From positions 1-50,812 of the forward strand of contig CABZHT010000001.1 in the NCBI GenBank assembly GCA_902525615.1: a DNA stretch of 50,812 nucleotides, written 5' to 3'. Source of the stretch: an uncultured Fidelibacterota bacterium (lineage in GTDB: Bacteria > Fidelibacterota > Marinisomatia > Marinisomatales > Marinisomataceae). The translations under genes and the position numbers were made by a program. Of this stretch, positions 2,734-38,279 are shown one piece after another; the first letter of the stretch is position 1; every line of letters starts with the position of its first letter. A model generated the notes under the pieces. That model was given only the letters and a program-made list of their open reading frames with translations, did no database searches and was not told the origin of the DNA.

Positions 2734-4152
2734 TTATCCTTTAATTTGATCATACGCTTTTAATGCTATATCTCGAGACTCTTCAATTGATACTATAGGT
2801 TTTGGATAATCTTCACCGTAATTAATTCCTGCTTCTTCAAAGACAGAATCATCTGCTTCCCATGGAGCAAATAAAAATTTTGCAGGAAGGTTCTTTAATT
2901 CTGGTATAAAATGCTTAGTATATTCACCATCAGGATCAAATTTTTTACCCTGCAAAATAGGGTTAAATATTCTAAAATATGGTGCAGCGTCTGCTCCACT
3001 TCCTGCAGTCCATTGCCAGCTTGCAGTGTTATTTGCCAAATCTGCATCGCACAAGCAATCATTAAACCATTCCATTCCTAATCTCCAGTCAATTAAAAGA
3101 TTTTTGACTAAGAATGATGCGACAATCATCCTAACACGATTATGCATATATCCTGTTTCCCATAATTGTCTCATTCCAGCATCCACAATTGGATAACCTG
3201 TCTTTCCTTTTTGCCATGCTAATAGAAAATCTTGATTAAGAGACCAAGGAAATTTATCAAATCGTTTATTTAAATTTTCAGTGCACATAAATGGAAAATG
3301 ATATATCAAATAATATGAAAATTCTCTCCATCCTAATTCGCTATGAAAATGAGCAACATCTTTTTCTGGGCAAGCACTCTTATTATCAAACCATATTTGA
3401 TGAGGTGAGATTTCACCAAAATGTAAATGAGGAGATAAAACAGATACATTTTCTTGGGCAGGAAAATTTCTACCTTCTTTATAACCAGTTAAGCCGTTGT
3501 CTCTGAAATGAATATATTTTTCCATTGCAAACCTTTCTCCAATCTTCCAATGCTTATTAAACTTATCCTTCCAATGATGTTTTGGAAGGAGGTTTAATGA
3601 ATCTATATCACTCGAAAAGGCAAGCTTATCGGAAAAACTATAGTCATTTTTTGCAACAACCTCTCTTGGGCCAGCATGTTTTTTTAAGCACCCTTTTCTA
3701 TAGAATGGTGAAAAGACTTTATAAGGGGTATTATCATCTTTTAAAATCTCCCAAGGTTCCCACAATAATGAACCATTAAAAGTTTTTACTTCAATATCAT
3801 TATCTTTTAAAAATGATTTAATTATTGTATCTCTTTCAATTTCCCACGGACTATAACATCGATTCCATGAAAATGACTCAATGTCATGATTGCTTATTAA
3901 TTCTTTAATAATTTTAACAGGATCTCCTGAAAAATAATTTATTTTACCTTCTAATGAATTGTTCAAAGAGTTAAGAGAATGATGAAGCCACCAGGAGCTC
4001 GCTTCTCCGAGATTGAACTCTTTTTGAGTGTTATTTACTGTATCAAGGATAAATATAGGCGTTACAGGGCCATTTTGAGCTGCAAAATGTAAAGATGGGT
4101 TATCTGATAACCTTAAATCTCTTCTGAACCAATGGATTGCTAATTTACTCAT
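2734..4152 (-). CDS. phrB: Deoxyribodipyrimidine photolyase (class I CPD photolyase)
   Basis: An FAD-dependent, blue-light-driven enzyme that reverses cyclobutane pyrimidine dimers. The N-terminal antenna domain begins LAIHWFRRDLRLSDNPSL. The FAD-binding half carries GWREFSYYLIYHFP, TGYPIVDAGMRQLWETGYMHNRVRM and DADLANNTASWQWTAG, all hallmark blocks. About 472 residues, normal for class I. The ATG at 4152 follows GAGG with 6 bases between; the codon before it is TTG, which I reject as start. It overlaps the end of the S1/P1 nuclease gene by 8 bases, so it is the last gene of the LLM-DUF2256-nuclease-photolyase operon. Confidence 0.96.
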   Translation of the reverse strand: MSKLAIHWFRRDLRLSDNPSLHFAAQNGPVTPIFILDTVNNTQKEFNLGEASSWWLHHSLNSLNNSLEGKINYFSGDPVKIIKELISNHDIESFSWNRCYSPWEIERDTIIKSFLKDNDIEVKTFNGSLLWEPWEILKDDNTPYKVFSPFYRKGCLKKHAGPREVVAKNDYSFSDKLAFSSDIDSLNLLPKHHWKDKFNKHWKIGERFAMEKYIHFRDNGLTGYKEGRNFPAQENVSVLSPHLHFGEISPHQIWFDNKSACPEKDVAHFHSELGWREFSYYLIYHFPFMCTENLNKRFDKFPWSLNQDFLLAWQKGKTGYPIVDAGMRQLWETGYMHNRVRMIVASFLVKNLLIDWRLGMEWFNDCLCDADLANNTASWQWTAGSGADAAPYFRIFNPILQGKKFDPDGEYTKHFIPELKNLPAKFLFAPWEADDSVFEEAGINYGEDYPKPIVSIEESRDIALKAYDQIKG

Positions 4153-4909
4153 CAAAAACCTCGTTCAATGTACCAGCTAGGCGATATCCAGCAGTAAATA
4201 ACTGTATTTTGACTATATCAAAGTTTTCATATATATAATCATATCCAAGATAATCACCATTTCTTACATTACTGTAAATTATTTTAACTTTATTTTGAGA
4301 TTCATCTATCCATTCATTCTCCGACAAAAGCTCAATATTTTCAGAGGAAAAACTAAGTAGTAAATGTGAAGACAATTCAGTATAACTCATTTGGTAATTA
4401 TCAATCATATTTGTATCCCAAACTCGATGTAAATTTGAATCGTCACCAAACCATTTTACTTTAATATCATTTCCTCCTCTATCTTCACCTCTACCAACGT
4501 GTAACGGTTGATGTATATCTCCTATTAAATGAACCAAATATCTCAAATAAAATGCTTTTTCCTCTAATGAAACATCATTGTCTTTCAACTTGGATTTTGA
4601 AAGCTTGATTGCTTGAACAATATCTCCTTTTGAAGATTTTTTTGAATTCGCATATGTTATATTTAATGGCATATTTGCATAATGCCATGGGTTGTACTTC
4701 CTAAAATCTGGATTTGATCTCATTTCGTCAGACCAAGTACTTGCAATGGCAAGTGACGGATTTTGTAAAATTTTTTTAATTTCAATTTTTGTTTTTTTAG
4801 TTAAAAAATGTTCTGCAACTTCTCCGGTAGTGCGATGACCAGTCTTACCCCAACTAAATGCTAAGTTTAATAATAATATAATTTGTAAGAATAGTTTAAA
4901 GTGTCGCAT
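4145..4909 (-). CDS. Exported S1/P1-type zinc-dependent nuclease
   Basis: A secreted nuclease that degrades single-stranded nucleic acids and removes 3'-phosphate from nucleotides, probably for phosphorus and nucleoside scavenging. The signal peptide ends ...NLAFS and cleavage exposes W20. The mature WGKTGH matches Trp1 and His6 of the trinuclear zinc site. The other ligands are visible in [25 protein letters not shown] and HRVWDTNM. I start at the ATG at 4909 (254 residues) because it precedes the signal peptide and follows AAAAGGA; the longer frame to 4963 lies inside the DUF2256 gene. It overlaps DUF2256 by 14 bases and phrB by 8. Confidence 0.92.
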
Positions 4910-5048
4910 TATTATTTTTCCTTTTATTTTTCCTACATCTTTCACTACAAAATTTAACATCATTCCAAGTCAATCTCCACTTCTTCCTCCAAGAAAATGA
5001 TAATTTACAAACGGGACAAATCTTTGTGGGTAGATGTTCTTTTTTCAT
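4896..5048 (-). CDS. DUF2256 small zinc-ribbon-like protein (50 aa)
   Basis: A 50-residue protein with [16 protein letters not shown] and [10 protein letters not shown], the two Cys pairs and WRKKW block of the DUF2256 family. Four cysteines (CxxC plus CxxxC) probably bind zinc. The start ATG overlaps the stop of the LLM gene as ATGA, and the end overlaps the S1/P1 nuclease start, so it is translationally coupled on both sides. DUF2256 genes are, to my recollection, often found beside photolyase/cryptochrome genes; here phrB is two genes downstream. The function is unknown. Confidence 0.9.
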
Positions 5049-6067
5049 GATTTCAACAATGGTATTACTTTATCACCAATCAATTTAATAGAGTCAGATA
5101 ATTGTTGATGTGCTAGTTCAGCAACACTCATTTGAAAAGCAAATTGTGTGATACCGCCTAAGCTATTACTATGCGCTTTTATCTTTTCAACTACCTCGGA
5201 AGGATCTCCTACTACCAATGCACCTGTTTCACTTACGAGAAAATCATAACTTTGTCTAGTAACTGGACCCCATCCGCGCTCTAACCCAATTTTAGTAAAT
5301 GATTTTTTATATCCATGAAAAAAATTCTCTCTGGCCTTATCTCCGTCTGTTCCTACAAATCCCAATGAATGGACTCCAATCTGAATATCTTCCTCTTTAA
5401 ATCCTGAATCTATCCATGTTTGGCGATATAAATCACATAACGGTCTAAATCTGTGTGTTTCCCCGCCAATAATAGCAATCATTAAAGGAAGACCTAATTT
5501 TGCGGCTCTGACAACAGACTGTGGTGTTCCTCCTACCCCAATCCATATAGGTATTTTTTGTTGATAAGGTCTTGGATGAACCTCTTGTCCTGAAAGAGAT
5601 GGTCTAAATTTACCAGACCAAGTAACTGCAGTATTATCTCTAATTTTTAAAAGTAGGTCTAATTTCTCTTCAAATAGTTCATTATAATCATCAAAACTTA
5701 AACCAAAAAGTGGAAATGACTCTCTGAAGGATGCTCTTCCAACGACCATTTGTACTCTTCCTTTCGAAAGCAAATCTAAAGTAGCATAATTTTGAAACAA
5801 CCTAACTGGATCAGCTGCAGATAATACAGCAACTGACGACTTAAGTATAATATTTTTTGTAATACTAGAGGCAGCGGAAAGTATATTATGAGCTGCGGAA
5901 TCTAAATACTCACGTCTATGATGTTCTCCAATACCATAAAAATCTAATCCATATTCATCTGAAAGATGAATGCGATCTAATAGATTTCTAATGGTTTGAT
6001 GTCTGTGATCAGCAGAATTATTTTCTGGCTGCTCTAATGATGCAAAACTGTGAATTCCTATTTTCAA
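5045..6067 (-). CDS. LLM-class flavin-dependent oxidoreductase
   Basis: A luciferase-like monooxygenase family TIM barrel, about 340 residues; such enzymes use FMNH2 and O2 on unknown substrates. Visible blocks are [52 protein letters not shown] and [21 protein letters not shown]. There is no ATG near the conserved N-terminus. The TTG at 6067 (encoding the residue before KIGIHSF) has AAAGGA 7 bases upstream and fits the family start, so I prefer it to the TTG at 6121. First gene of the operon with DUF2256, S1/P1 nuclease and phrB. Its substrate cannot be told from sequence. Confidence 0.9.
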
Positions 6068-6131
6068 TTTTTTTTCCTTTTTTTTGTGGTGCAAATTATT
6101 AGAAAATGAAAATTTTAACAAGAAGGTCTTA

Positions 6132-36509: not shown

Positions 36510-36797
36510 ATGAAGCTTGAAGAATTACAGAACATAATTTTTAAAAAAATTTCAGATGAAATTTCTGTAGACTACATTAATGTATATGACTACACTGCTC
36601 AACATGAAAATCATGCTACGTTTGAAGGGAATTATCACTTGAGTATGACATTAGTGAGTCCTGATTTTGAATCGATGAGTTTAATTGAAAGGCATCAGTT
36701 AGTTTATAAAGCGCTCGATGAGTATATGCATGGAGAAATTCATGCCTTGACTATGAAGACACTCACTCCTGAAGAATACCAGAACAGTCAAAAATAA
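36510..36797 (+). CDS. bolA: BolA family protein
   Basis: 95 residues. BolA/IbaG fold: VYDYTAQHENHATFEGNYHL, then the helix-loop VSPDFESMSLIERHQLVYKA and HALTMKTLTPEEY. The conserved C-terminal His (GEIHAL) that helps bind a Fe-S cluster with monothiol glutaredoxin is present. No glutaredoxin gene is adjacent. It abuts the photolyase-like gene with no gap (stop then ATG), so both are probably expressed together. Confidence 0.93.
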   Translation: MKLEELQNIIFKKISDEISVDYINVYDYTAQHENHATFEGNYHLSMTLVSPDFESMSLIERHQLVYKALDEYMHGEIHALTMKTLTPEEYQNSQK

Positions 36798-38279
36798 ATG
36801 AAGTCTTTACTGATTGTTTTAGGAAATCAACTTTTTGATAAAAGTAATCATCCTCAAGAAATATCCGATATTTTTATGTGTGAAGATTTTGATTTATGTA
36901 CGTATGAAAAACATCATAAAAAGAAAATCTCATTTTTTCTTACATCTATGAGAGAATACAGAGATGAAATGTCTGATTCTGGATATGAACTTCATTATAA
37001 AGATTTGAATGACAGATTTAAATCCTCCTTTGTTTCAAAACTAGAAGAAACCATTGCAACTATTGAGCCAAATAAAATCTTTATCTATGAAATTGAGGAT
37101 AAGGAGTTTGAATCTTCGCTCTTATATTTTTTAGAAAATCAAAATATTGAATTTGAAGTTCTACAGTCCCCTATGTTTATTCATGACAGGAGTTATTTTA
37201 AAAATTATCAAGAAGGAAAAAGAACCTTATTACTTGAAAATTTTTATAGAAAAACACGAAAAGAACTAAATATTCTTATGGAAGAAGGAAATCCGTTGGG
37301 CGGTCAATGGAATTATGATGAATTAAATAGAAAAAAAATACCTAAAGGTCTTGAAATTCCTTCTAATAAAAAATATTCAAGTAGTCATCTATCGAAAATA
37401 AATGAATTCATTGATAAAAATTTTACTGATCATCCTGGAGATACATCAGCAGATTTTTGGGTTCCATTTAATCGAAAAGAAGCTCTTGAATATCTTGATA
37501 AATTTTTCGAAATAAAATTTGAGCTGTTTGGTCCCTATGAGGATGCAATATATGATAATCATAGTTTTTTATTCCATTCTGCAATTAGCCCATTATTAAA
37601 TATTGGTTTACTGACTCCAATGGAAGTTATTGAAAAAGCGGTCGCATTTAGCGAATCAAATAAAATCTCTATCAACTCTGTTGAAGGCTTTGTAAGACAA
37701 ATAATGGGTTGGAGAGAATTTATCAGAGGAGTATATCAAACAAGAAGCCATAAACAGATTGGCTTTAATTTCTTTAAAAATGAGCGAAAAATGACTCAGG
37801 ACTGGTATGATGGTACAACTGGTATCGATCCGTTAGATAATGCAATAAAACTTACTTTAGAGCATGGATACACCCATCATATTAATAGATTAATGGTTAT
37901 TTCAAATATTATGAATCTTTCTGGAATTCATCCGGATGAAATTTATAAATGGTTTATGGAAATGTTTGTTGATTCTTCTGAATGGGTTATGGTACCAAAT
38001 GTTTATGGTATGGGAACATTTGCTGATGGAGGAGTCTTCTCAACAAAACCTTATATTTGTGGATCAAGTTATATAATGAAAATGAGTAATTTTAAGAAAG
38101 GTCCTTGGTGTGATATTGTTGATGGACTTTATTGGTCATTTATAAAAAATAATCTTGAATATTTTAAAACTAATCCTCGCCTAGCAGTGATGCCTAGAGC
38201 TCTAGAAAGATTGAAAGATGAAAGAAAAGAAATTATTTTTAATGCATCTAGTGCTTTTCTTTCTGAAAAGACAAAGTAG
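36798..38279 (+). CDS. Cryptochrome/photolyase-related protein (PhrB/FeS-BCP family) lacking Fe-S cysteines
   Basis: 493 residues. The N-terminal antenna domain starts SLLIVLGNQLFDKSNHP; the FAD part has SVEGFVRQIMGWREFIRGVY, HHINRLMVISNIMNLSG and WVMVPNVYGMGTFADGGVFS, the signature blocks of PhrB-type bacterial (6-4) photolyases. In that family four cysteines bind a 4Fe-4S cluster. Here the region reads MSNFKKGPWCDIVDGLYW with only Cys421 and Cys438, and the helix before it has Tyr where the first Cys is expected, so the cluster is probably absent. Likely (6-4) photoproduct repair or light sensing. Confidence 0.88.
   Translation: MKSLLIVLGNQLFDKSNHPQEISDIFMCEDFDLCTYEKHHKKKISFFLTSMREYRDEMSDSGYELHYKDLNDRFKSSFVSKLEETIATIEPNKIFIYEIEDKEFESSLLYFLENQNIEFEVLQSPMFIHDRSYFKNYQEGKRTLLLENFYRKTRKELNILMEEGNPLGGQWNYDELNRKKIPKGLEIPSNKKYSSSHLSKINEFIDKNFTDHPGDTSADFWVPFNRKEALEYLDKFFEIKFELFGPYEDAIYDNHSFLFHSAISPLLNIGLLTPMEVIEKAVAFSESNKISINSVEGFVRQIMGWREFIRGVYQTRSHKQIGFNFFKNERKMTQDWYDGTTGIDPLDNAIKLTLEHGYTHHINRLMVISNIMNLSGIHPDEIYKWFMEMFVDSSEWVMVPNVYGMGTFADGGVFSTKPYICGSSYIMKMSNFKKGPWCDIVDGLYWSFIKNNLEYFKTNPRLAVMPRALERLKDERKEIIFNASSAFLSEKTK

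Follow-up and report, generated by a model that had tools for sequence, protein, structure and literature searches.

Genes and domains at the locus

The window, that is, the whole stretch of DNA analyzed (50,812 nucleotides), belongs to a genome of the phylum Neomarinimicrobiota which comprises 0.92 Mb in 5 contigs and is 89% complete. It carries an uninterrupted open reading frame (ORF), from an ATG at position 36798 to a stop codon ending at 38279, in which no frameshift was present. The genes and domains considered here were the following:

36798..38279, + strand: putative cluster-free prokaryotic (6-4) photolyase gene, 493 aa (open ORF, Pfam, phmmer and AlphaFold2 model)
36813..37460, + strand: N-terminal antenna domain DPRP, residues 6-221 (PF04244, 9e-57)
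37710..37979, + strand: Pfam-matched part of the FAD-binding region, residues 305-394 (PF03441 FAD_binding_7, 2.7e-07)
36510..36797, + strand: BolA-family gene that stops immediately ahead of the photolyase start codon (PF01722, 5.6e-22; same place in genus-level loci)
2734..4155, - strand: second photolyase, CPD/class I-like (PF00875 over the cut-off, the only PF00875 match of the genome)

The second photolyase scored under the NCBIfam equivalog cut-offs, with values of 1e-98 to 1e-105 to class I and plant-cryptochrome-type models. Near it, a luciferase-like monooxygenase gene was found at 5045-6121 on the - strand (PF00296, 5e-43). The host genome also contains a rhodopsin-family gene which, together with the CPD-type photolyase, fits a life in light. 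BolA proteins are linked to the handling of Fe-S clusters. The position of such a gene beside a cluster-free enzyme is odd and may be due to chance.

Family assignment and structure model

The first-pass annotation had placed the protein in the PhrB (6-4) family, and this placement holds. DPRP and FAD_binding_7 were both above the Pfam cut-off, and the two sequence blocks on which the annotation relied, WVMVPNVYGMGTFADGGVFS and HHINRLMVISN, were located at residues 396-415 and 360-370, respectively. PF00875 (DNA_photolyase), the antenna domain of class I CPD photolyases, was not matched by the protein, DPRP being found instead. The best matches among solved structures were all prokaryotic (6-4) photolyases (9HNK, 4DJA/5KCM, 8IJY, 3ZXS, and 7YKN; phmmer 1e-86 to 3e-70), and the best identity among the nearest named relatives, from Candidatus Marinimicrobia / Neomarinimicrobiota, was 96%. 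A structure model, which had been named as a suitable check, was built with AlphaFold2 from 32 homologs (pLDDT 85.8, pTM 0.88) and showed a PhrB-type fold, with TMq values of 0.90 to 4DJA, 0.91 to 9HNK, and 0.89 to 3ZXS and a sharp drop to about 0.6 for other photolyases. The weak spot of the model is residues 395-416, beside the flavin, with pLDDT <50. As for the label given to the protein, FeS-BCP-type photolyase without the Fe-S cysteines, the absence of the cysteines was correctly described. The name FeS-BCP is unsuitable because that group is defined by the cluster, and prokaryotic (6-4) photolyase of the cluster-free subgroup is to be preferred.

Absence of the 4Fe-4S ligands

The alignment comprised 192 sequences: the window protein, PhrB, the Caulobacter enzyme, and 189 loci with homologs in genomes or on plasmids, the sampling being weighted to the relatives of the window and to Alphaproteobacteria. 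At the positions of the four ligands of PhrB (4DJA), the window protein has Pro345 (for Cys350), Lys433 or, with another alignment, a gap (for Cys438), a gap (for Cys441), and Asp439 (for Cys454). Thus none of the four is present in this intact ORF, as had been proposed from the sequence. Its only cysteines are Cys28, Cys34, Cys421, and Cys438, and the last two are indeed the only ones in the C-terminal region. The upstream ligand position had been read as Tyr, which was mistaken: the alignment puts Pro345 there and pairs Tyr337 with the electron-transfer Trp342 of PhrB. The features of this region are:

37830..37832, + strand: Pro345, position of PhrB ligand Cys350 (alignment; Pro in 125/126 cluster-free relatives, Cys in 65/65 cluster-type sequences)
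38058..38060, + strand: Cys421, outside the ligand columns (Cys in 102/126 and Ser in 23/126 relatives)
38091..38123, + strand: short loop FKKGPWCDIVD, residues 432-442, with Trp437, Cys438, and Asp442 (deletion of about 10 residues relative to PhrB residues 437-457)

This loop stands where PhrB has YCDTCRYDPKERLGDNACPFN. Cys438, which is Cys in 108 of the 126 cluster-free relatives, lies one residue ahead of the fourth-ligand column and, given also the shortening of the loop, there is no displaced ligand set. Cys421 and Cys438 were likewise discarded as leftover ligands, since they are outside the ligand columns and are replaced by Ser or other residues in relatives. The two conditions under which the initial observation was to be abandoned, ligands located elsewhere or a C-terminal frameshift, were ruled out by alignment to PhrB and the 126 relatives. 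No ligands were found elsewhere in the window protein, and relatives from its genus (73-97% identity) agree with it in length and C-terminus.

A cluster-free branch of the family

Among the 192 aligned sequences, the four cysteines were all present in 65 and all absent in 127, with no intermediates, and every Neomarinimicrobiota copy in the alignment was cluster-free. A tree of 71 sequences was built after removal of the trait columns, with a CPD photolyase on a branch of length about 10 as the only outgroup. In this tree, taken as unrooted, 42 cluster-free sequences were separated from 28 cluster-type sequences by one branch with a support of 100, equivalent to a single change. The cluster-free branch suggested in the first-pass annotation is therefore a clean split with no mixed genotypes. 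Loss of the cluster would be favored over its gain, as the cluster of the primase PriL sits at the same place as in photolyases (PMC3204975).

All 126 cluster-free relatives share Tyr337, Asp347, Tyr383, Phe386, Glu388, Met398, Trp437, and Asp442. The cluster-type sequences mostly differ, with Trp at Tyr337, Tyr at Phe386, Glu at Met398, and Asn at Asp442, as well as Cys at Pro345, and they are variable at the positions of Asp347, Tyr383, Glu388, and Trp437.

Enzymes of this kind have been reported before. PMC9178010 (Chen et al., 2022) counts PromaPL of Prochlorococcus (Ma et al., 2019, doi 10.1111/febs.14770) among the (6-4) photolyases that have no cluster, and it describes subgroup M, whose 20 members come from multiple lineages and have none of the four cysteines. 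Most marine Synechococcus Phr2 likewise have no cluster cysteines (PMC9426592). Already in 2015, 7% of the homologs were described as having no Tyr460 and also missing the Fe-S cysteines (PMC4619345). Tyr445 of the window protein aligns with Tyr460 and is Tyr in 121 of the 126 cluster-free relatives, which means that the 7% may be made up of other sequences. The observation is thus correct and the branch is already published; the host phylum Neomarinimicrobiota is not named in the passages of PMC4619345, PMC9178010, and PMC9426592 considered here. This study adds the cluster-free state of all Neomarinimicrobiota homologs in the set, residues specific to the clade, and, from a larger number of sequences, the all-or-none distribution of the cysteines.

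Repair residues, electron transfer, and antenna

The residues related to photolyase function were located as follows:

37875..37880, + strand: His360-His361, equivalent to PhrB His365-His366 (invariant in 192/192 aligned sequences)
38052..38072, + strand: Tyr419 and Tyr425, equivalent to PhrB Tyr424 and Tyr430 (invariant in all aligned sequences)
37806..37808, + strand: Tyr337, position of electron-transfer Trp342 of PhrB (Tyr in 126/126 cluster-free relatives, Trp in 62/65 cluster-type sequences)
37989..37991, + strand: Met398, near FAD N5, PhrB Glu403 (Met in 126/126 cluster-free relatives, Glu in 56/65 cluster-type sequences)

In addition, Asp174 and Asp249 match the Mg2+ aspartates Asp179 and Asp254 of PhrB, and the window protein thus holds the counterparts of His366, Tyr424, Tyr430, and both aspartates. 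In PhrB, His366 is essential for repair, Tyr424 binds the lesion, and Tyr430 is needed for efficient repair, mutations abolishing or lowering it (PMC4619345). The electron-transfer chain Trp342/Trp390/Tyr391/Tyr395 of PhrB is not intact, as it reads Tyr337, Trp385, Phe386, and Phe390. A Met near FAD N5 is common outside subgroups A, B, and G (PMC9178010).

With respect to the antenna, the host genome has a DMRL synthase gene. In the DMRL "ceiling" of PhrB, Lys47 is kept as Lys43, while Glu37 and Arg108 are replaced by Leu33 and Glu103; since these two residues are not kept, DMRL is not assignable as the antenna. The alternative chromophore 8-HDF was set aside, as no match to cofH (FO synthase) was found in the 89% complete host genome, while DMRL synthase is present.

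Compared with known enzymes, the window protein resembles Agrobacterium PhrB (4DJA) and the Caulobacter enzyme (9HNK) over the full length (about 30% identity, TM 0.90-0.91), including the repair residues and the Mg2+ aspartates. It differs from these FeS-BCP in the missing ligands, the loop shorter by about 10 residues, the changes Trp342 to Tyr, Tyr391 to Phe, and Glu403 to Met, and the absence of Glu37 and Arg108. Rhodobacter sphaeroides CryB (3ZXS) has the same fold (TMq 0.89) and belongs to the same family (phmmer 1e-74), but it has the cluster and a DMRL antenna. SePhrB of Synechococcus elongatus (8IJY), of the same family, likewise has Met near FAD N5 and Phe in place of Tyr391; it keeps the cluster and uses 8-HDF, whereas the genome of the window protein gave no match to cofH. 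PromaPL and subgroup M, which are among the closest known systems, are of the same family and also have no Fe-S cysteines (PMC9178010); a Met near FAD N5 and a broken PhrB electron chain are reported there for the subgroups other than A, B, and G, with M among them. The likeness rests on the traits described there, and the host of PromaPL is a cyanobacterium whereas that of the window protein is a member of Neomarinimicrobiota.

Proposed mode of action and alternative explanations

The PhrB fold, the kept repair residues, the absence of the four ligands, the shorter loop, and the branch-specific residues around the cluster site indicate that the gene very probably encodes a light-driven prokaryotic (6-4) photolyase of the cluster-free, PromaPL-like kind known from the literature as "subgroup M". 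In the mechanism proposed, blue light would excite reduced FAD (FADH-), which would pass an electron to the (6-4) photoproduct held over His361, Tyr419, and Tyr425, with Mg2+ near Asp174 and Asp249. Given that the Trp342/Tyr391 chain of PhrB is altered, photoreduction of FAD would probably proceed via Trp385 and either Tyr337 or Trp336. Judging from conservation, the domain is likely to be stabilized by the short loop and the contacts it makes rather than by a cluster: the loop, anchored by Trp437, Asp442, Pro345, and Asp347, would take over the packing role of the cluster in PhrB, and the enzyme would hence be stable without iron.

That the cluster-free members have switched to CPD repair or have become blue-light sensors (cryptochromes) is improbable. 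The altered electron-transfer chain is compatible with such a switch, a CPD role has been suggested for the cluster-free Phr2 of marine cyanobacteria (PMC9426592), and Rhodobacter CryB, another member of the family, has a role in gene regulation as well. However, the relatives retain His361, Tyr419, Tyr425, and both Mg2+ aspartates, the literature lists PromaPL as a (6-4) photolyase (PMC9178010), and the host genome already has a CPD-type photolyase, a gene type which is also adjacent to or near the cluster-free gene in loci L020, L065, L119, and L120. The separate CPD-type enzyme implies a division of labor that fits (6-4) repair.

It is still less probable that a metal or a smaller cluster is bound via Cys421 and Cys438 plus other side chains. 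Both cysteines are frequent in the marine branch (102/126 and 108/126, respectively) and Cys438 adjoins the fourth-ligand column, but either one is replaced by Ser or other residues elsewhere in the branch, Pro345 removes the first ligand, and the CxxC loop is absent. Finally, although two genomes of the same genus carry interrupted copies, conservation across genomes refutes the idea that the missing cysteines are an artefact due to a frameshift, misassembly, or decay of a pseudogene. The window copy is intact, and a C-terminus of the same kind occurs in 126 relatives, whose sequences come from single-cell assemblies, metagenome assemblies, and the 1.24-Mb HIMB114 contig; the same ligand-free state in all these relatives excludes chance or sequencing error.

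Considering the protein as a cluster-free (6-4) photolyase, the existence of a natural branch of this type suggests that photolyase chemistry needs no cluster. Cysteine mutants of PhrB were insoluble or not expressed (PMC4619345), and the replacement residues of the branch mark specific sites at which PhrB could be engineered to do without its cluster. The window protein is ordinary in kind and a mildly useful test bed for the role of the cluster.

Iron economy and genome size

Genome size was compared within an evenly drawn set of 240 alphaproteobacterial genomes, fragments being left out: the median was 1.4 Mb for carriers of the cluster-free type (n = 10) vs. 3.8 Mb for those of the cluster type (n = 55; p = 2.6e-5), a comparison uncorrected for kinship and confounded by descent. 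The smaller alphaproteobacterial genomes are only suggestive of iron economy behind the cluster-free type. The 2019 paper by Ma et al. reportedly also proposed marine iron shortage as the cause of cluster loss. It is conceivable, though we consider it rather doubtful, that one ancient lineage swapped the 4Fe-4S cluster for a protein core (Pro345, Asp347, Trp437, and Asp442) and, as an iron-sparing (6-4) photolyase, spread across several phyla of streamlined bacteria in the surface ocean.

Viral contigs and related genes in other genomes

The gene was not regarded as phage-borne: neither the phage collection nor a single-protein query of the viral contigs gave any match to the window photolyase, and a profile query of the latter yielded just two contigs, one of them probably cellular. 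A PhrB-type photolyase was observed on the 83-kb viral-classed contig IMGVR_UViG_3300016474_001053 (L194:4839-6422), with a C-terminus without the CxxC cluster loop (KMSNYGRGSGDDDWVELW) and with a second photolyase FAD domain at about 4 kb.

In many loci of Pelagibacteraceae and in one of Nitrosomonadales, the cluster-free photolyase is followed immediately by a gene for a DCC1-like thiol-disulfide oxidoreductase (PF04134), as in these examples:

L024:5427-5825: PF04134 neighbor in SAR11, others being similar
L020:5501-5896: PF04134 neighbor

In many SAR11 genomes, a 386-aa FAD_binding_7 protein with no N-terminal photolyase domain is encoded two genes away from the cluster-free photolyase (L024:5939-7096, - strand). 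The interrupted copies in the genus of the window (G012:C1:321768-323244 and G015:C3:320465-321940) contain stops or frame breaks, which may reflect decay or assembly errors. A genome of the same order (G120) holds two homologs, at C38:3469-4941 and C22:83830-85155, one near the window type (53%) and the other resembling the type usual in that order (43%), which points to transfer or a mixed bin.
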